From the NCBI GenBank assembly GCA_020438595.1, contig JAGQUI010000131.1, forward strand, positions 1-7,245: a stretch of 7,245 nucleotides of DNA, in the 5' to 3' direction. Of this stretch, positions 1 through 6,766 are shown one piece after another; position 1 is the first letter of the stretch; each line of letters begins with the position of its first letter. A program made the translations under genes and the position numbers. The notes beneath the pieces were generated by a model. It did no database searches. It saw nothing but the letters and a program-made list of their open reading frames with translations, and was not told where the DNA came from. The stretch is from Propionibacteriaceae bacterium. Lineage in GTDB: Bacteria > Actinomycetota > Actinomycetes > Propionibacteriales > Propionibacteriaceae.

Positions 1-1
1 A

Positions 2-91
2 ATCGCCGATCCGTTTGAGCCGCTTAAAACTCTGCGCGCCTATTGTGAGGGCGGGGCGGATGCGATTTCCGTCCTGACAGATGAACGGCTT
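2..91 (+). pseudogene. trpC: Fragment of indole-3-glycerol-phosphate synthase (TrpC), out of frame with the next gene
   Basis: Frame 2 translates to about 30 residues ending in GGADAISVLTDERL. This matches the beta-strand segment of indole-3-glycerol-phosphate synthase (tryptophan biosynthesis), whose family signature is a run like GGAxAISVLTDE. The preceding IADPFEPLKTLRAY fits the segment after the SPSKG loop, usually 'I..DFDP..lA..Y'. The match stops near base 91, where TrpC proteins normally continue with an FxGG-type motif that is absent here. The piece is about 59% GC, uses codons such as CTT, AAA, ACT and TGT that are rare in the rest of the window, and is in a different frame from the mmsA sequence it runs into. 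It is either foreign sequence joined by a chimera or a rearrangement breakpoint. The family call is fairly sure; the biological reality of the join is doubtful. Confidence 0.7.
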
Positions 92-1100
92 GATGATCAT
101 CGCGGCCGGCAACGCGGTGATCATCAAGCCGTCGGAGAAGGACCCGTCCGCGGTGAACGCGATCGCCGAGCTCTGGCGCGAGGCCGGACTCCCCGCGGAC
201 GTGATGAACGTCGTGCACGGCGACAAGGAGGCCGTGGACGCACTGCTCGACAACCCCACCGTGAAGGCCGTGTCCTTCGTCGGCTCCACCCCGATCGCCC
301 ACTACGTGTACGAGCGCGGCACGTCCAACGGCAAGCGGATCCAGGCCCTCGGCGGGGCCAAGAACCACATGCTGGTGCTCCCGGACGCCGACCTCGAGCT
401 CGCCGCGGACGCCGCGGTGAACGGCGGCTTCGGCTCCGCGGGTGAGCGCTGCATGGCCGTCTCGGTCATCCTGGCCACCGACTCGATCGCGGACGAACTG
501 ATCGAGAAGATCAGCGAGCGCGTCCGCACGCTGCGGATCGGGGACGGGACCGCCGGCGTCGACATGGGCCCGATCGTCACCGGGCAGGCCCGCGACCGGA
601 TCACCGGCTACATCGCGGCCGGCGCCGAGGCCGGCGCCAACTTAGTCATCGACGGCAGGGAAGGCCCCTTCGAGGGCGACCCGAACGGCTACTTCGTCGG
701 CCCCACCCTGTTCGACAAGGTGAGCACCGACATGAGCATCTACACCGACGAGATCTTCGGCCCGGTGCTCTCGGTGGTGCGGGTGTCCGGCTTCGAGGAG
801 GGCCTCGACCTGATCAACGCCAGCCCCTTCGGCAACGGCTCGGTGATCTTCACCAACGACGGCGGGGCGGCCCGCAAGTTCGAGATCGAGGTGCAGGCCG
901 GCATGGTCGGCATCAACGTGCCCGTGCCGGTGCCGATGGCCTACTACTCGTTCGGCGGCTGGAAGAACTCGCTGTTCGGCGACTCCCACGCCCACGGGAC
1001 GGAGGGCGTGCACTTCTACACCCGGTCGAAGACGGTGACCCGGCGCTGGCCTGACCCGAGCGCCCGCGGGTTGCAGCTGGGCTTCCCGCAGAACAACTGA
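81..1100 (+). CDS. mmsA: Methylmalonate-semialdehyde dehydrogenase (CoA-acylating), 5' end missing
   Basis: CoA-dependent aldehyde dehydrogenase that converts (methyl)malonate semialdehyde to propionyl-CoA or acetyl-CoA with NAD+ in valine and inositol catabolism; cytosolic. The 339 codons from the ATG at 81 cover the C-terminal two-thirds of a protein normally near 500 residues. Visible in order: AAGNAVIIKPSEKDPS (NAD site, Lys16), the FVGST nucleotide-binding turn (67-70), QALGGAKNH (88-96) and GSAGERCMA with catalytic Cys124. The QALGGAK motif has Ala where ordinary aldehyde dehydrogenases have the general base Glu (ELGGK), as expected for this CoA-acylating subfamily. The EIFGPVL and FGNGSVIFT motifs and the C-terminal FGGWKNSLFGD are intact to the stop at 1098-1100. 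The true start is not here: homology begins near base 98 and the bases before it are junction sequence, so the ATG at 81 is probably not used. Downstream lie a CsoR-like palindrome and a large inverted repeat. Confidence 0.93.
   Translation: MNGLMIIAAGNAVIIKPSEKDPSAVNAIAELWREAGLPADVMNVVHGDKEAVDALLDNPTVKAVSFVGSTPIAHYVYERGTSNGKRIQALGGAKNHMLVLPDADLELAADAAVNGGFGSAGERCMAVSVILATDSIADELIEKISERVRTLRIGDGTAGVDMGPIVTGQARDRITGYIAAGAEAGANLVIDGREGPFEGDPNGYFVGPTLFDKVSTDMSIYTDEIFGPVLSVVRVSGFEEGLDLINASPFGNGSVIFTNDGGAARKFEIEVQAGMVGINVPVPVPMAYYSFGGWKNSLFGDSHAHGTEGVHFYTRSKTVTRRWPDPSARGLQLGFPQNN
86..131. repeat. Inverted repeat at the trpC/mmsA junction
   Basis: The arm at 86-103 (CGGCTTGATGATCATCGC) is the reverse complement of 114-131 (GCGGTGATCATCAAGCCG) with one mismatch in 18, separated by 10 bases. 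The right arm encodes the conserved VIIKP segment of mmsA. The left arm sits where mmsA should encode a Pro-Met-Trp-Phe-Phe-Pro-like stretch, and instead reads like an inverted copy of the right arm. Fold-back copies like this are typical of chimeric joins made during amplification or assembly. A chance match is possible because GATGATCATC is itself palindromic. Confidence 0.75.
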
Positions 1101-1104
1101 TACG

Positions 1105-1120
1105 ATACCCCCTGGGGTAT
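1105..1120. promoter_or_regulatory. CsoR/CstR-like operator palindrome
   Basis: ATACCCCCTGGGGTAT is a 7-2-7 palindrome (ATACCCC / GGGGTAT). It has the G-tract core flanked by TA-rich ends known for operators of CsoR-family repressors (copper-sensing CsoR, persulfide-sensing CstR). It starts 4 bases after the mmsA stop and 117 bases before the start of the membrane-protein gene. A TACGAT hexamer at 1101-1106 could be an overlapping -10 element, which would suit repression, but no convincing -35 is visible. No csoR or copper gene is in the window, so the regulator is unknown. Confidence 0.5.
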
Positions 1121-1127
1121 GAGTTAC

Positions 1128-1201
1128 CCGTCGGCCGAGCCGGCGGCCGGTCCCTGGCTGACTCACACGAACGGGACCGACCGACGCGGCTCGGCCGACG
1201 G
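1128..1201 (+). other. Large stem-loop in the leader of the membrane-protein gene
   Basis: Positions 1128-1141 (CCGTCGGCCGAGCC) and 1188-1201 (GGCTCGGCCGACGG) form a perfect 14-bp inverted repeat. A second 7-bp stem is nested inside: CGGTCCC at 1148-1154 with GGGACCG at 1173-1179. It could be the transcription terminator of mmsA, although no T-run follows, or a structured leader RNA for the gene at 1237. It lies directly behind the CsoR-like palindrome, so a transcript started there would carry it whole. Confidence 0.55.
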
Positions 1202-1236
1202 CCATTTCCACCGCCGTTGGGCGAGAGGAGTCGTCG

Positions 1237-1668
1237 ATGGGGTCACCGGAGGAGTTCTTCGGAAGCGTGCCCCGCGCGCTCGACACCGTCCGACCCGAGA
1301 AGCTCTCCGGGCTCGCGTACTGGCGCACGGCCTGGGGAACCCGGCAGACCGTTGCCGCGATCGTGCTCACGGTTGCCCTGCTGCCCGCCTACGCGGCGGT
1401 CGCCGGCTGGCCGGAGGACCCGGCGGTCCTGACCGTGCTGGCCCTGCTGTCGGGGCTGGGCGCCATGATCGGCGCGAGCTACGTGCCGTCCCCCGGCACG
1501 CCGGCGGTGACGAGCCCGTGCGCGGCCGGCCCGCTGTTCCTGCTCGTCGGCACCTTCATCCTGCTCGGCCGCGGCCCCGTCACCCTGAGCGGGGTGCTCT
1601 TCGCCGGACTGCTCGTCGTGCCCGCGCTGCTGCTGCGCGCGTTCGGCCCCACCACCTGCCCTTCCTGA
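1237..1668 (+). CDS. Small four-helix membrane protein of unknown function
   Basis: 143 residues starting at the ATG at 1237, chosen because GAGAGGAG sits 7-8 bases upstream. A soluble N-terminal stretch of about 35 residues, with acidic and basic residues, is followed by four hydrophobic segments at roughly 38-57, 63-83, 95-111 and 115-134; the tail is about nine residues. Cys95 (in SPCAAGP) opens the third helix and Cys141 is near the C-terminus. I do not recognise a family. The only context is the CsoR/CstR-like palindrome and the long stem-loop upstream; if the palindrome is real the gene could respond to copper or persulfide, but that is inference. Longer overlapping frames here lack the ribosome site and translate to arginine-rich shadow protein. 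The gene converges on the minus-strand fusion gene 320 bases away. Confidence 0.7.
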   Translation: MGSPEEFFGSVPRALDTVRPEKLSGLAYWRTAWGTRQTVAAIVLTVALLPAYAAVAGWPEDPAVLTVLALLSGLGAMIGASYVPSPGTPAVTSPCAAGPLFLLVGTFILLGRGPVTLSGVLFAGLLVVPALLLRAFGPTTCPS

Positions 1669-1718
1669 GCCCCGCGCTCCCCGAGCAGGCTCGCAACCCC
1701 CCACTCGCTCCCTGAGGA

Positions 1719-1741
1719 GGCTCGCGAGGAACGAGCGAGCC
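1719..1741. repeat. Short inverted repeat after the membrane-protein gene
   Basis: GGCTCGC (1719-1725) pairs with GCGAGCC (1735-1741) around a 9-base loop. Just before it, TCCCTGAGG at 1709-1717 is the reverse complement of CCTCAGGGA, the core of the tandem repeat at 1809-1985. The small hairpin therefore seems to belong to the same intergenic repeat family in opposite orientation. Confidence 0.5.
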
Positions 1742-1778
1742 GTCACGAAGGGCGCGCACGACACCGCCCTTCGTGACG
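1741..1778. terminator. Strong hairpin between convergent genes, probable bidirectional terminator
   Basis: CGTCACGAAGGGCG (1741-1754) and CGCCCTTCGTGACG (1765-1778) form a perfect 14-bp stem with a 10-base loop. There is no T-run on either side, as is common for terminators in high-GC actinobacteria. Its place between the ends of a plus-strand and a minus-strand gene fits termination of both. Confidence 0.6.
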
Positions 1779-1808
1779 CGGCGTCCTTCGCGCGCTCAGA
1801 ACGCCGCT

Positions 1809-1985
1809 CCTCAGGGACCGGTGGGGAAAACCACGCGCCGCCCTCAGGGACCGGTGGGGAAAACCACGCGCCGCCCTCAGGGACCGGTGGGTAGACCACG
1901 CGCCGCCCTCAGGGACCAGTCGGCAAACCACGCGCCGCCCTCAGGGACCGGTGCAGGGGAACCGCTCCTCAGGTACCGGTGTGCG
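1809..1985. repeat. Tandem repeat of about 33 bp, six units
   Basis: Units start at 1809, 1842, 1875, 1907, 1939 and 1967, each with CCTCAGGGACCGGT or a one- or two-base variant. They mostly run on through a GGGGAAAACCACGCGCCGC-like half. The spacings are 33, 33, 32, 32 and 28 bases, so the first copies are nearly identical and the last two drift. The array ends four bases before the stop codon of the fusion gene. On the minus strand a 33-base period keeps a frame open (repeating PVPEGGAWFS), but there is no plausible start or ribosome site and the 32-base steps break the frame, so I treat it as non-coding. The remaining bases of 1669-1988 hold only the hairpins listed separately. Confidence 0.9.
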
Positions 1986-1988
1986 GCG

Positions 1989-4583
1989 TCAGATGGTGCG
2001 GGTCGTTCCGCCCGCGTCGGTGGCGGTGATCGTGAACGACTCGGACGCCAGGTCGGCGTCCAGCCTCGCGACCAGGTCACCCCTGCGCCAGGTCACCACC
2101 AGCCGCCCCGGCCCGGTGTCGGCCACCTCGCAGTCGGCATCGAAGCCGAACGCGCCGAAGGTGTTGCGGAACCTCAGCAGCTCCAACTGGCGCTGCACCA
2201 CCGGCTGCCGCAGCCCGGCCGCGACGTCGTCCGCGCCCAGGTTCGACCGGTTGATCTCCTTGTGGCCGCCCGAACCGGCCCTCTCGACCGCCGCGTGGTC
2301 GTTCTTCCCCGCGAACAGGTCGAGGTACCACACCTGCGGCTTGCCGGGCATGAACAGCTGCACCGCCCGGGCCAGCAGCAGCCGGGCATCGCTCTCCCCC
2401 AGCGCGCTGTAGTAGGTGGCGTTCACCTGGTAGTACATGTTCTTCGCGCCGTGCAGGTCCTTCACGTAGCCGCCGCGGCCGACGATCGTCTGGATCAGCG
2501 CCTGGATGCGCTCCTCGTCGAGCAGCCCCTTCAGGTCGAGCAGCGGGATGCCGTCGTGGCACCCGAGCATGTTCACCGTGTGGATGTCCTTCGCGAGCAA
2601 CTCGGCGATCCACCGCTTCAGGGTGGACGCGTCGCGCCGGTCGAGCGCGTCGATCAGCAGCCCGGGCAGGAAGAAGTCGTAGGTCAGGAAGCCCTTCGCC
2701 GCCAGCACCTCGTGGATGCCCTCTGCGTAGGTGGAGTGGATCTCGGGCAGCAGCTTGAGCCCGCGCCGGTCGGCCAGCTCCTTCACCTGCGCGAGCAGGT
2801 CCCACGTGCCGGGGTCGTTGAGGAAGTTCTTCAGCCCCGGCTCCTTGGGCGCGTAGGCGAACGCGTCCAGCCGGACGATCTGCGCGCCGTAGCCGGCCAG
2901 CTTGTCCAGGGTGTCGGCGTAGAACTCCCACACCAGCGGACTGGAGATGTTCAGGTCCATCTGGCCGAGGTAGGTGCGGTTGCCCTCGACCAGGTCGACC
3001 ACCGCGTCCCGAGCGTCCTCGTAGCCGGCGAAGTCGGCCTCGCCCGGACGTTGCCCGGACGCGAGCGCGGCGGCCACCCGCCCGGCGAGCACCTGGGCGC
3101 GTCCGTACTGCAGCCCGGTGGCCTTCATCAGGTCCTGGGTGCCCGGGGCGGTGTAGCGCACCTCCTGGTAGAAGGTGTTCCAGTACGGCTTCTCGGTGCC
3201 GTCGGGCAGGCGCACCATCAGGATCGGCAGGCCCGGCTTGCGGAAGAACATGTCCTTGATCAACTCGGGCGCGGGCTGGATGTACCCGTCGGCGGTGAGC
3301 TCGCCGTGGCCCGCCCAGAAGGCGTTCCAGTCGATGAAGAAGTCCTTGTACGCCGACCGCTCGCCGTGGGCGAGGATGTCCTGGAACTGCGGGGACAGCA
3401 CCGAGGCGTGGTTGAGGATGAAGTCGAAGGCGAAGTCGACGCCCTCCTCCGCCAGCGCATCGAGGTCGGCCCGCGTCGCGAACTGCTCGGACAGGTTGTA
3501 GTCGATCACGGAGAAGCCGCGGTCGAGGTCGGTGTTGAACACGCTCGGCAGCAGGTAGGCGGAGCTGAACACGTCCGCGAGCTCGGGACGCCGCACGAAT
3601 GCGACCAGGTCGGACAGGGTGCCGCCGATGCTGTCGGGGTAGACGTTCAACATCACGCCCGCTCCGGGCAGGTCGGCCCCCATCGCCTTCAGGTAACCGT
3701 CGTAGTCGAGCAGTTCGCCGGACTTGGCGACGATGATCCGGGCCTTCGGCGCCTGCGCGTGCAGCTTCGCCTGCTCGAGCTCGAGCACCATCGTGGTGAA
3801 CGGGCTGTCCACCGCGCCGTCGCGGCTGCGCGAACGGCGGTGGGCGAGGGTCTCCTCGGGCGTGCTGTTCAGCAGGATCGGGATGTCGACGCCGGCCAGG
3901 AACCCGGAGTTGCCGTGCGTCCACTCCACGACGATCACCCGGGTGTCGCGGACGTCCACCGCGTCGTACCAGAGCGCGTCCGGCGTGCGTCCCATCCGCT
4001 TCAGCATCAACTCGGGCGCGCCCTCGTGGAACGCGGCCAGGATGCCGCTCACCTCGTCGAAGTCGGTCTCGACCGGGGTGCCGAGGTAGCCGGCCAGCGC
4101 CCGGCGTCCCGCCCTCTGGTAGATGGCCAGCCACGGGTGCGCGGCGACCTCGGCCGGATCCGCGTCCCGGTCGGACGCCACCAGCGCGGCCAGTTCCTCC
4201 CGGACGGCTTGGCCGTAGGCGCCGCGGGCGACCAGCCCCTGCACGCCGCCCACGCGGAACGTGCGCAGCCGCTCGGCGTCGTTCACCGCGGGGATGCGCC
4301 GGGGGTAGTTGTCGCCGGAGAGCACGTAGGCGCCGACGCCGAGGGCGTTCAGGCCGTAGGCCAGCAGGGAGCCGGTCTCGGACTTGCCCACGCCCGACCC
4401 GCCGCAGACGGCGACGACCGCGCGCCCGCCGTCGGCCAGCAGCGGTTCGAGCAGCCGCCACAGCTCGGGGAAGACCACCCGCGCCTTGGCGAGGTGGGTC
4501 TCCTCGATCTGGACCTTGTCGCCGGGCATGTCCCCGGTGGGCACTGCGGCCAGGTCGGTCACGTCAGGGAAGCGCACGTCCAT
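1989..4583 (-). CDS. Fusion of a P-loop kinase and a GH13_18-like alpha-glucoside phosphorylase
   Basis: 864 residues. The start is the ATG at 4583, with GAGGAG five bases upstream; an in-frame start 38 codons earlier lacks a ribosome site. Residues ~50-300 form a P-loop kinase of the uridine kinase/phosphoribulokinase type: Walker A GGSGVGKSE (61-69), SGDNYPRRIP (89-98, with an Asp resembling the acceptor-site Asp of that family), VIVVEWTHG (216-224), and an Arg-rich lid-like region (HRRSRSRDG, 248-256). Residues ~310-864 are a GH13 barrel closest to sucrose/glucosylglycerate phosphorylases: FDFILNH (386-392), RLDAFAY with nucleophile Asp573, LLPEIHSTY with acid/base Glu614, GCHDGIPLLD with transition-state Asp677, YYQVNATYYSALG (717-729) and KEINRSN (775-781). 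All catalytic residues are present. About 60 residues (~478-540) are inserted between the NTFYQE and DLNISSP segments compared with sucrose phosphorylase. Predicted cytosolic: phosphorolysis of an alpha-glucoside to glucose 1-phosphate, plus phosphorylation of a small molecule, perhaps the released acceptor. The substrate is not readable; the domain calls are firm. Confidence 0.9.
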   Translation of the reverse strand: MDVRFPDVTDLAAVPTGDMPGDKVQIEETHLAKARVVFPELWRLLEPLLADGGRAVVAVCGGSGVGKSETGSLLAYGLNALGVGAYVLSGDNYPRRIPAVNDAERLRTFRVGGVQGLVARGAYGQAVREELAALVASDRDADPAEVAAHPWLAIYQRAGRRALAGYLGTPVETDFDEVSGILAAFHEGAPELMLKRMGRTPDALWYDAVDVRDTRVIVVEWTHGNSGFLAGVDIPILLNSTPEETLAHRRSRSRDGAVDSPFTTMVLELEQAKLHAQAPKARIIVAKSGELLDYDGYLKAMGADLPGAGVMLNVYPDSIGGTLSDLVAFVRRPELADVFSSAYLLPSVFNTDLDRGFSVIDYNLSEQFATRADLDALAEEGVDFAFDFILNHASVLSPQFQDILAHGERSAYKDFFIDWNAFWAGHGELTADGYIQPAPELIKDMFFRKPGLPILMVRLPDGTEKPYWNTFYQEVRYTAPGTQDLMKATGLQYGRAQVLAGRVAAALASGQRPGEADFAGYEDARDAVVDLVEGNRTYLGQMDLNISSPLVWEFYADTLDKLAGYGAQIVRLDAFAYAPKEPGLKNFLNDPGTWDLLAQVKELADRRGLKLLPEIHSTYAEGIHEVLAAKGFLTYDFFLPGLLIDALDRRDASTLKRWIAELLAKDIHTVNMLGCHDGIPLLDLKGLLDEERIQALIQTIVGRGGYVKDLHGAKNMYYQVNATYYSALGESDARLLLARAVQLFMPGKPQVWYLDLFAGKNDHAAVERAGSGGHKEINRSNLGADDVAAGLRQPVVQRQLELLRFRNTFGAFGFDADCEVADTGPGRLVVTWRRGDLVARLDADLASESFTITATDAGGTTRTI

Positions 4584-4610
4584 GTGGACTCCTCGTGGTT
4601 GTCGCCACCA

Positions 4611-4629
4611 GCAGGTTAGCCAACCCGGG
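4611..4629 (-). promoter_or_regulatory. Candidate promoter -10 and overlapping imperfect palindrome of the fusion gene
   Basis: On the minus strand TAACCT (4618-4613) is a fair -10 hexamer about 30 bases before the ATG at 4583; I see no good -35. It overlaps the imperfect 12-base palindrome GGTTAGCCAACC (10 of 12 symmetric). GCAGGTTAGCC resembles the left half of a DtxR/IdeR iron box (TTAGGTTAGSC), but the right half is shifted by a base and fits poorly. It is a weak iron-box candidate or an unrelated operator. Confidence 0.3.
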
Positions 4630-4651
4630 GACGCACGTCTGCCCCTCTGGC

Positions 4652-4663
4652 TAAATCGATTAA
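4652..4663. promoter_or_regulatory. Candidate LacI-type operator upstream of the fusion gene
   Basis: TAAATCGATTAA is an AT-rich palindrome with a central CG (10 of 12 positions symmetric) inside otherwise GC-rich DNA, about 70-80 bases before the fusion-gene start. LacI/GalR repressors of sugar genes bind AT-rich palindromes centred on CG. A glucoside-phosphorylase gene is the usual kind of target. No LacI-family gene lies in the window. Confidence 0.4.
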
Positions 4664-4670
4664 CCTGATC

Positions 4671-4838
4671 GTACGGGGCGCGACGCGGGCGCCGCAACTC
4701 GCGCGTCCTCCCGAAACCCCTCGAGAACGCCGGACGCGAGCACGGTCCGACTTCGTGATGTACGACGACACGGCCGTGCTGGGGCTCGGTCGCCGCGTGG
4801 TGCGGCGACGGCTGGGCGTGGAGACCCCGGACATGTAA
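4671..4838 (+). pseudogene. Possible 3' remnant of a gene, or a 26-residue peptide
   Basis: A plus-strand frame is open up to the TAA at 4836-4838 and ends in MYDDTAVLGLGRRVVRRRLGVETPDM. From about 4746 onward nearly every third position is G or C, as in the coding genes here, and a strong hairpin begins two bases after the stop, as after a real gene. The only in-frame starts are GTG 4755 and ATG 4758, giving 26-27 residues, with no clear ribosome site. The residues before them (ARPPETPRERRTRARSDFV) look like the inside of a protein. It may be the tail of a degraded gene; I do not recognise the family. Confidence 0.35.
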
Positions 4839-4940: not shown

Positions 4941-5306
4941 TCAGTTATTGTTCGCGGCCTCTGCCTCCGCCTTCAACTTCTCCATGTCGAGCGCCTTCAC
5001 CTGCTCGACCAGGCTCGTGAACTGGCTCTTGTTCAGGGCACCGGCCTCACGGTAGACGAGGTAGCCCTCGCGGAACGCCATCAGCGTCGGGATCGAGGAG
5101 ATGCCGAGCCCGCCCGCGAGCGCCTGCTCGGCGTCGGTGTCGACCTTGGCGAACACCGCGTCCGGATGCGACTCGGACACCGACTCGAACACCGGGCCGA
5201 ACATCCGGCAGGGCCCGCACCAGGCCGCCCAGAAGTCGACGAAGACGACGTCGTTGTCCTTGATGGTGTCGCCGAAGTTGGCTTCGGTAACGGTCGTGGT
5301 TGCCAT
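4941..5306 (-). CDS. trxA: Thioredoxin
   Basis: 121-residue cytosolic thioredoxin that reduces protein disulfides and is itself recycled by thioredoxin reductase, which is not in the window. The active site is WCGPC (Cys30, Cys33) after VDFWAA, and the cis-proline is Pro73 in SIPT. KVDTDAEQALAGGLGISSIPTLMAF is typical thioredoxin core. The C-terminal helix runs on about 15 residues past the usual end (MEKLKAEAEAANNN), charged and alanine-rich. The ATG at 5306 is preceded by AAGGAAA about nine bases upstream; the longer open frame upstream is a shadow of dtxR. It follows dtxR in the same direction after 82 bases, but a candidate SigR/SigH-type promoter lies in that gap, so it is probably transcribed on its own under thiol stress. 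A hairpin terminator follows. Confidence 0.97.
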   Translation of the reverse strand: MATTTVTEANFGDTIKDNDVVFVDFWAAWCGPCRMFGPVFESVSESHPDAVFAKVDTDAEQALAGGLGISSIPTLMAFREGYLVYREAGALNKSQFTSLVEQVKALDMEKLKAEAEAANNN

Positions 5307-5388: not shown

Positions 5389-6078
5389 TCACGCGACGGC
5401 GACGAAGAGGTGCTCCGCTGTGACCCCGGGCAGGACGGTCTCCGTGTCCCCCTCGCCCAGCACGAGCGAGTGCCCCACCATCGCCGCGCGGACCGGCTGC
5501 CCGGGCAATGCCCCGGCCGTCCGGATCGCCGCCAGCAGCCCGGGCTCGTTCTGGATGTGCTCCCCCATCCGGAGCACCTCGACCCGGTGCGGCTCCCGAT
5601 CCGCCAGGCGCAGCGAGAGCAGCTCGGTGCCGTCCAGGAAGCCGTCCGTGGCGGGGGCGACACCCAGCTCCTCGAGCGCGGGGATCGGGTTGCCGTAGGG
5701 CGAGCGCACCGGATGGTCGAGGATGGCCACCAGCCGGCGCTCGACGTCGGTGGAGATGACGTGCTCCCACCGGCAGGCCTCCTCGTGGACCAGCGTCCAG
5801 TCGAGGCCGATCACGTCGGTGAGCAGCCGCTCGGCGAGCCGGTGCCTCCGCATCACCCGCGCCGCGAGTTCCTCACCCTTCGGGCTGAGCACGAGATGAC
5901 GATCCGGATGCACGGAGACCAGGCCGTCGCGCTCCATCCGGGCGACCGTCTGGGACACCGTCGGGCCGCTCTGGCCGAGCCGCTCCGCGATCCTGGCCCG
6001 CAGGGGAGGCACACCCTCCTCGCCGAGCTCGTAGATGGTACGCAGGTACATCTCGGTCGTGTCGATGAGGTCGCTCAT
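5389..6078 (-). CDS. ideR: DtxR/IdeR-family iron-dependent transcriptional repressor
   Basis: 229-residue DNA-binding repressor that, with Fe2+ bound, shuts off iron-uptake genes. The N-terminal winged helix (1-~73) includes the recognition segment [16 protein letters not shown] (37-52). The dimerisation and metal domain (~74-140) has [16 protein letters not shown] and RSPYGNPIP. All metal ligands of Corynebacterium diphtheriae DtxR occur at the same numbers: Met10, Cys102, Glu105 and His106 for one site; His79, Glu83 and His98 for the other. Cys102 points to iron rather than manganese (MntR) sensing. Residues ~148-229 fit the C-terminal SH3-like domain and are less conserved. The start at 6078 is set by GGGAGGAG 4-5 bases upstream and by alignment with DtxR. 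It diverges from the acVLRF1 gene across 37 bases, and trxA follows 82 bases downstream. The symbol dtxR would be equally correct. Confidence 0.96.
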
Positions 6079-6115
6079 GCTCTCCTCCCTGCGGGTCGGT
6101 TGCCAGACTATAGCC
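6079..6115. promoter_or_regulatory. 37-bp divergent intergenic region with a shared -10-like element
   Basis: CTATAG at 6108-6113 gives TATAGT on the minus strand, about 29 bases before the ideR ATG: a good -10, though no convincing -35 is visible. The plus strand reads TATAGC in the same place, only two bases before the acVLRF1 ATG at 6116. That is too close to be its own -10 unless translation begins further in (GTG at 6143 or 6149). The ideR ribosome site GGGAGGAG lies at the left end. Confidence 0.45.
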
Positions 6116-6766
6116 ATGGGAACGTTGCCGGGGCCGAGAACGGTGAGGGTGGGCCCGCACCGTCTCGCAGGGTGGCTGGACGGCTTCGCCGAGCGGCACG
6201 GGCGCCCCCGGATCGAGGTCGGGACGGACGCGGTCGTGCTGGCCGCCCCGGACGGGGCCACGGCCCGGATCGGCCTGGCCTGGGGGCCGTTGGCCGGCGC
6301 CGACCCGATCGCCGAACTGGTCGAGGCCGTGACCCGTCCCCGGCTGGTCGGCGCGCTGATCGTGCGGCGCAAGGCGCACGCGGTGGGGGTGTTCGACGGC
6401 GACGCGCTCGTCGCGGGTCGCCACGGCAGCCACTACGTGCAGGGACGCACGAAGGCCGGCGGCTGGTCGCAGCAGCGCTACGCCCGGCGCCGGGCCAACC
6501 AGGCCGGACGCTCGTTCGACGCCGCCGCGGACGATGCGGCCGCCGTGCTGCTGCCGGAGGTCGATCGGCTCGAGGCACTGGTCACCGGGGGCGACCGCGC
6601 CGCCGTGGCCGCCGTCCTCTCGCACCCGGGCCTGGCGCGGCTGGCCGATCCGGCGCTGCGCCGCGGCTTCGGCACCTTCGCCGTGCCGGACCCGAACGCG
6701 CGGGTGCTGGCCGGCTTCGCCGAGGTGTTCCGGCAGGTGCCGATCGAGCTGAACGAGCTCGCCTGA
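6116..6766 (+). CDS. acVLRF1: actinobacterial Vms1-like release factor / peptidyl-tRNA hydrolase
   Basis: 216 residues related to the actinobacterial branch of the Vms1/ANKZF1 release-factor family, eRF1-like proteins thought to release nascent chains from tRNA on stalled ribosomes. The hallmark is [18 protein letters not shown] (104-121), followed by YARRRANQA (122-130). The GGWSQQ stretch is the counterpart of the catalytic Gln loop of Vms1 (GGQ-like in eRF1). The N-terminus [22 protein letters not shown] (8-29) and the C-terminal [18 protein letters not shown] (190-207) fit the family. The ATG at 6116 leaves about seven extra residues before the conserved start, but no ribosome site is visible; leaderless or GTG starts at 6143 or 6149 are possible, while the longer open frame to 6035 overlaps ideR. 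It is divergent from ideR and its stop is six bases from that of the convergent gene. Confidence 0.87.

Follow-up and report, generated by a model that had tools for sequence, protein, structure and literature searches.

The analysed stretch of DNA, called the window here, comprises 7,245 nucleotides (positions 1 to 7,245 of contig JAGQUI010000131.1 from a Propionibacteriaceae bacterium) and carries on its reverse strand a gene whose product combines an N-terminal P-loop kinase with a GH13_18 phosphorylase domain. The gene starts with an ATG, preceded by AGGAG at a spacing of five bases. The preliminary description had reported an intact kinase, a GH13 phosphorylase-like domain with all three catalytic acids and the presence of both in one polypeptide. 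These observations were borne out: the Walker A motif GGSGVGKS was found at residues 61-68, Asp573, Glu614 and Asp677 aligned with the GH13_18 acids, and an uninterrupted open reading frame (ORF) of 864 residues spans both domains (Table 1). The protein is very likely a bifunctional sucrose 6F-kinase/sucrose 6F-phosphate phosphorylase (SPP), in which the partners of a conserved kinase-spp gene pair are joined. This assignment is based on the intact domains, the homology to characterised families, the specificity residues and the conserved linkage; both activities and the 6F position are predicted from sequence.

Within the kinase domain, the Walker A residues G61, G62, S63, G64, G66 and K67 were kept in all 102 kinases compared (window included), the variable positions being residue 65 and the last serine. 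R249, R252, R254 and D255 of the arginine cluster were likewise identical in 102 of 102. The fold and the Walker A motif identify a PRK/uridine kinase-like P-loop kinase, modelled alone by AlphaFold2 with a predicted local distance difference test score (pLDDT) of 92.9. Its fold matches were type I pantothenate kinase, uridine kinase, D-glycerate 3-kinase and phosphoribulokinase, at identities of 8-20% among the 50 matches listed. A common fold with these PRK-type kinases is proposed, not a common substrate. The fold matches act on primary hydroxyls, uridine kinases on the 5'-OH of ribofuranose. The Pfam search of the kinase half returned AAA_33 at an E-value of 0.05, and the PRK model was above its cut-off in the relatives at loci L110, L111, L148 and L165, the window protein not being listed. 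The homology that places the kinase half in the AgaSK type was determined with locus L111 (39% identity over 237 columns, E-value 2e-51), whose GH36 part aligns nearly identically with all 720 residues of the solved RgAgaSK of Ruminococcus gnavus (2YFN); 2YFN itself comprises the GH36 part only. Phosphorylation of sucrose has been reported for RgAgaSK (Km of 3.1 mM) and for its kinase domain on its own (1.0 mM). The R. gnavus system, RgAgaSK/RgSPP, has a homologous kinase domain, and in the AgaSK-type locus L111 SPP is the next, overlapping gene. It differs from the window protein in that the kinase is fused to an upstream GH36 alpha-galactosidase and not to the phosphorylase.

From about residue 305 onward, the protein aligned in two blocks with GH13_18 phosphorylases. 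The closest sequence match in the PDB was 6S9U, the SPP of Ilumatobacter coccineus (IcSPP), with an E-value of 1e-183. A structure prediction, proposed in the preliminary description, gave 6S9U as the closest fold as well (TM-score of 0.93 by target length for the GH13 half of the AlphaFold2 model); the full-length model had a mean pLDDT of 84.5 and a predicted TM-score of 0.65 and was weakest at residues 254-256 and 449-451. The NCBIfam model sucrose_gtfA scored just under its cut-off (E-value 1.6e-93, 313.9 bits compared to 334.4), and the Pfam Alpha-amylase model was below cut-off. Membership in GH13_18 follows from the catalytic triad, which was invariant in a 34-row alignment of fused proteins and in all 92 SPP domains with more than 430 aligned residues (window included in both; nine loci with an incomplete SPP were left out).

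According to published reports, strict SPPs are marked by the loop A signature KxxYYQ and by Arg152, Lys364, Tyr377 and Lys434, which bind fructose 6-phosphate (IcSPP numbering). The loop A motif and all four ligands are present in the window protein, Tyr377 and Gln378 of IcSPP corresponding to Tyr718 and Gln719. Across the 92 domains, R448, K708, Y717, Y718 and Q719 were invariant, K714 was found in 87 and K775 in 90, with gaps in the other two. With IcSPP, the window protein shares the fold, the catalytic acids, the loop and the fructose 6-phosphate ligands; IcSPP differs in being a single-domain protein of 523 residues, with the kinase encoded by a separate, divergent gene that overlaps by 4 nucleotides. 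The promiscuous SPP TtSPP (6S9V) also belongs to GH13_18 and catalyses the same reaction. Glucosylglycerate phosphorylases are described as having Glu where other enzymes have Gln; at the position taken to correspond, 719, Gln was found in 92 of 92 domains. The phosphorylase half thus appears to be of the strict SPP type and glucosylglycerate an unlikely substrate, so that the glucosylglycerate hypothesis of the preliminary description was not upheld.

Separate searches with the domains and with the full length, also suggested there, showed that the fusion is real and widespread. The full-length protein gave 5969 matches at E <= 1e-10 among candidates whose length was 0.55-1.75 times that of the query, which are hence not solely fused proteins. 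The 120 matches listed (window included) all had 856-887 residues at a query coverage of 98-100%, with Propionicimonas, Propioniciclava, Tessaracoccus and Actinotalea among the genera; a cultured species with such a protein is Propionicimonas paludicola. With the kinase half alone, 3507 matches at E <= 1e-4 were obtained among proteins of limited length, most of those listed having about 300-325 residues and, if named at all, being called adenylylsulfate kinase, ATP-binding protein, alpha-galactosidase or, from jgi, 'hypothetical protein'; for the standalone kinases the first three names were rejected because they are at odds with the linkage to SPP. A scan of named genomes, from which the best 80 of 399 relatives were kept as loci, yielded 36 fused loci, all from Actinomycetota, and 44 unfused ones from Bacillota plus one contig each from a Gemmatimonadaceae and a Bacteroidales metagenome-assembled genome. 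In 43 of the 44, a GH13_18 ORF starts on the same strand within 400 nucleotides of the kinase end; the remaining locus (L068) stops 52 bases past the kinase. A chance fusion or one-off assembly artefact was rejected because of the 36 fused loci among 80 and the uniform length of the 120 listed matches. The kinase was also found in 22 of 299 genomes of a Lachnospiraceae sample (the family of L079), with GH13_18 fused or adjacent in 22 of 22 and fused in 4.

Altogether 101 loci were counted, comprising 40 fusions, 60 with SPP directly downstream and one uninformative locus. Left out were L087, L092, L094, L095, L098, L099, L101 and L102 (for which the longer L110-L117 were substituted), L081 (same as L079) and L103-L109 (second pieces belonging to the same matches); the near-identical L071 and L083 are both within the count, and an Actinomycetota sample was counted separately. 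In this latter sample (396 genomes, the phylum of L015), a GH13_18 match at E <= 1e-40 was found in 23 genomes, of which 4 carry the fusion, 3 carry IcSPP-type genes of 47-53% identity and 16 have only distant matches of at most 40%. The IcSPP-type genomes include that of I. coccineus, whose SPP is identical to 6S9U over 523 residues; in all three, a kinase gene of 217-219 residues (217 in I. coccineus) lies directly upstream and overlaps the SPP gene by 4 nucleotides. When the kinase served as the query in this sample, 22 genomes were found at E <= 0.001: the four fusions (E < 1e-130), the three IcSPP partners (9e-12 to 5e-8) and 15 others (5e-9 to 9e-4). According to a 2019 paper, SPP activity is accompanied by a kinase in the same cluster in gut Firmicutes, and the AgaSK locus has been described as confined to a small number of gut species; our data extend the link to many Actinomycetota including I. 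coccineus. The fusion was not described in the titles and abstract openings of the literature matches listed, a reach that ends before subscription papers such as Bruel 2011.

In the proposed mechanism, the N-terminal kinase would act first and phosphorylate the fructosyl moiety of sucrose at its C6 hydroxyl with the gamma-phosphate from ATP, giving sucrose 6F-phosphate and ADP. The phosphorylase would then convert sucrose 6F-phosphate and inorganic phosphate to glucose 1-phosphate and fructose 6-phosphate. If true, a single protein would provide the complete route (sucrose + ATP + inorganic phosphate -> glucose 1-phosphate + fructose 6-phosphate + ADP), and its products would enter glycolysis via phosphoglucomutase and phosphofructokinase. 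The ATP cost is the same as for sucrose phosphorylase combined with fructokinase; the gain may be that sucrose is trapped and free fructose is never formed. This is a new architecture built of known enzyme types, not a new kind of enzyme. The interpretation in the preliminary description is borne out in part: of the two orders of events it offered, phosphorylation before cleavage is the one favoured by the SPP residues, the AgaSK homology and the linkage, while the trapping of a released acceptor is not.

Several observations weigh against this assignment. According to published work, AgaSK phosphorylates sucrose at C6 of the glucose moiety, and a product of this kind should not be cleaved by a strict SPP. 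Furthermore, the 39% identity to the AgaSK-type kinase comes with an insert difference of about 46 residues, so the substrate of the window kinase could differ from that of AgaSK. Between the kinases of I. coccineus and the window, identity is only 26%. Among the 15 other genomes of the Actinomycetota sample, the stretches fetched for six (L160-L165) gave no GH13_18 match, and five of these six have a kinase that shares 59-62% identity with its I. coccineus counterpart and lacks GH13_18 beside it, which indicates a wider kinase family not tied to SPP. Finally, the neighbours of the fusion gene in the window are not sugar genes.

The published position of the phosphate would fit a different arrangement, in which the kinase makes sucrose 6-phosphate (at glucose C6), SPP uses imported sucrose 6F-phosphate and the two domains serve separate branches; pathway models of that kind have been published for R. 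gnavus. We consider this arrangement improbable, since it does not predict the linkage: 100 of 101 loci have SPP either fused to the kinase or immediately next to it, the linkage extends over Actinomycetota and Bacillota as well as Gemmatimonadota and Bacteroidota, each of these two with a single contig from a metagenome-assembled genome, and even the divergent kinase overlaps SPP in all three IcSPP-type genomes. The surroundings of the unfused pairs point in the same direction. For 41 of the 44 unfused loci, 125 same-strand ORFs of 200-1000 residues near the pair were compared with known families: 32 matched ABC permeases, 8 GH36 alpha-galactosidase and 8 a putative esterase family; clustered genes for AraC and LacI regulators and for solute-binding proteins also recurred. 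In Agathobacter rectalis the order is AraC, solute-binding protein, two permeases, 'alpha-galactosidase' (946 residues) and 'sucrose phosphorylase'. The importers seen beside the pairs are thus ABC-type, and ABC import would leave sucrose unphosphorylated, so that the SPP substrate would most obviously come from the kinase. GH32, the family of sucrose-6-phosphate hydrolases, was not among the 25 commonest families listed for the 125 neighbour proteins, whose matches include 74 further families, although a GH32-like gene adjoins the I. coccineus pair. Altogether, the linkage argues for phosphorylation at fructose C6, the kinase product being the SPP substrate, and is in conflict with the published position, which is thereby put in doubt and is directly testable. 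The AgaSK product was identified by mass spectrometry in a 2020 paper.

Even less probable is a reaction order in which sucrose, glucosylglycerate or glucosylglycerol is phosphorolysed first and the kinase then traps fructose, glycerate or glycerol. The strict SPP ligand set kept throughout the 92 domains, apart from the two gaps at K775, speaks against it, as do published data on two characterised enzymes: of more than 30 acceptors tried with IcSPP, fructose 6-phosphate alone was used, and RgSPP released products from sucrose 6F-phosphate only and none from sucrose. In addition, glycerate kinases were not the closest folds to the window kinase. On account of loop A and the ligand residues, this order and the glucosylglycerate reading were held unlikely.

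The divergent kinases without SPP show which other partners occur. In L160, L162, L163 and L164, a kinase with 60-62% identity to that of I. coccineus is followed, with a 4-nucleotide overlap, by a gene for about 700 residues. The gene product in L164 (724 residues) had no match in Pfam, NCBIfam or the PDB; it has 1633 homologues, and those named among the 120 listed are called 'hypothetical protein'. The partner genes in L160 and L162 agree in their own length and that of the contig with the homologue matches P0278 and P0308, and that in L163, which runs off the contig, agrees by its N-terminus. This gene is a candidate for a so far undescribed enzyme partnering a sugar kinase. In L165 (positions 1-4759), a kinase sharing 30% identity with the I. 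coccineus one is followed by a beta-phosphoglucomutase-GH65 fusion, with ABC permease-like genes upstream as judged by eye; possibly the same kinase-then-phosphorylase logic operates here with another phosphorylase family. The close kinase family therefore accompanies SPP wherever this is visible, and the divergent family also serves other partners. That the window kinase itself acts on a sugar other than sucrose, with the GH13 domain cleaving its phosphorylated form, is the least probable of the explanations considered: the GH65 and 700-residue neighbours suggest that the wider kinase family is not limited to sucrose, but the IcSPP-type site is specific for the fructose 6-phosphate moiety in glucosyl transfer, and the natural substrate that remains is then sucrose 6F-phosphate.

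A kinase tied to or beside the phosphorylase across several phyla would be a simple answer to the origin of sucrose 6F-phosphate, which a review leaves open; in the text of the IcSPP paper, the word 'kinase' occurs once, in a general introductory sentence. We regard as evenly balanced the larger proposal that jointly holds the kinase to found a family of ATP-dependent sucrose 6F-kinases supplying the missing substrate of strict SPPs, the published glucose-C6 position for AgaSK to be wrong, and the pairing to exemplify a wider theme, PRK-type sugar kinases priming glycosides for their own dedicated phosphorylase (of GH13_18, perhaps of GH65 and perhaps of an undescribed 700-residue family).

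The 35 fusions from Actinomycetota, that of the window among them, formed one group in the SPP tree with an SH-aLRT support of 99, and the Lachnospiraceae-sample fusions L113/L114 and L117 were placed elsewhere. The fused state required three changes on the SPP tree, at least two of them forced by well-supported branches, and four on the kinase tree, at least three of them forced. Both trees were quick ones with some long branches, built from the loci fetched here to the exclusion of characterised GH13_18 enzymes of other specificities. From these placements, the Lachnospiraceae fusions look independent of the actinobacterial ones, and losses of the fusion are also compatible with the counts of changes. 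If these two genes did fuse more than once, this would in itself point to a linked function. The kinase and SPP trees correlated with r of 0.65 over 92 rows (500 permutations gave at most 0.18) and with 0.46 for the 54 unfused rows; since shared descent alone can yield such a correlation, light weight is given to it. The L114 fusion adjoins a GH36 gene, and L113 has GH36 two genes away. In L112 (4197-6347, reverse strand), a kinase is fused behind a PF00144 serine hydrolase domain, and the next gene is SPP.

Table 1. Features of the window and of loci used for comparison; roles in the predicted fusion protein are assigned by alignment unless stated otherwise.
Feature	Coordinates	Strand	Remarks
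Predicted kinase-SPP fusion gene	1989..4583	-	864 residues + stop; uninterrupted translation
Kinase domain, residues 1-300	3684..4583	-	P-loop, PRK/uridine kinase/pantothenate kinase fold; AgaSK kinase-domain homologue
Walker A GGSGVGKS, residues 61-68	4380..4403	-	alignment
Asp91 of SGDNYPRR	4311..4313	-	conserved acidic residue (putative role); kept in 102/102
EWTH, residues 220-223	3915..3926	-	putative Walker B-like strand end; kept in 102/102
RRSRSRD, R249-D255	3819..3839	-	putative lid-like arginine cluster; alignment
GH13_18 domain, residues 305-864 + stop	1989..3671	-	predicted IcSPP-type SPP
Arg448	3240..3242	-	IcSPP Arg152, phosphate ligand; alignment
Asp573	2865..2867	-	catalytic nucleophile; alignment with GH13_18
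Glu614	2742..2744	-	acid/base (IcSPP Glu264); alignment with GH13_18
Asp677	2553..2555	-	third catalytic acid (IcSPP Asp327); alignment with GH13_18
Lys708	2460..2462	-	IcSPP Lys364, phosphate ligand; alignment
Loop A KNMYYQ, K714-Q719	2427..2444	-	strict SPP signature KxxYYQ; alignment
Lys775	2259..2261	-	IcSPP Lys434, phosphate ligand; alignment
Ribosome-binding site AGGAG	4589..4593	-	upstream sequence inspection
Palindrome GGTTAATCGATTTAGC	4650..4665	-	upstream of fusion gene
Methylmalonate-semialdehyde dehydrogenase	window 81-1100		N-terminal third missing in the reading frame
Thioredoxin	window 4941-5213
DtxR-type repressor	window 5389-6279
acVLRF1 release-factor-like protein	window 6035-6766
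Divergent kinase + partner gene of about 700 residues	L164:4957-7775
Lachnospiraceae-sample kinase-SPP fusions	L113:3389-5893, L114:3216-5585, L117:583-3030

Among mobile elements, phages gave two partial matches (tblastn, E-value 1e-20), one of them a 7-kb record with the kinase-to-SPP sequence in two pieces. For plasmids, 323 records matched, one of them over 80% of the query, which is the AgaSK-SPP locus of Agathobacter rectalis.

The palindrome GGTTAATCGATTTAGC precedes the fusion gene and resembles an operator of the LacI family. Its core AATCGATT occurs 8 times in the 36 fused loci (508,762 bases in total). For 33 of these loci (three were left out) the upstream regions were compared: 6 of the 8 occurrences lie at most 260 bases upstream of the fused gene, in 6 loci, and the core is absent within this distance in the other 27. 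The Rfam search gave no match.

Fused genes have few conserved neighbours. In the window, these are the truncated dehydrogenase, the thioredoxin, the DtxR-type repressor and the acVLRF1 protein listed in Table 1. An open frame at window positions 2-81, beginning IADPFEPLKTLRAYCEGGADAISVLTD, resembles indole-3-glycerol-phosphate synthase. It directly precedes the truncated dehydrogenase and may reflect a junction between genes or a chimeric end of the contig.

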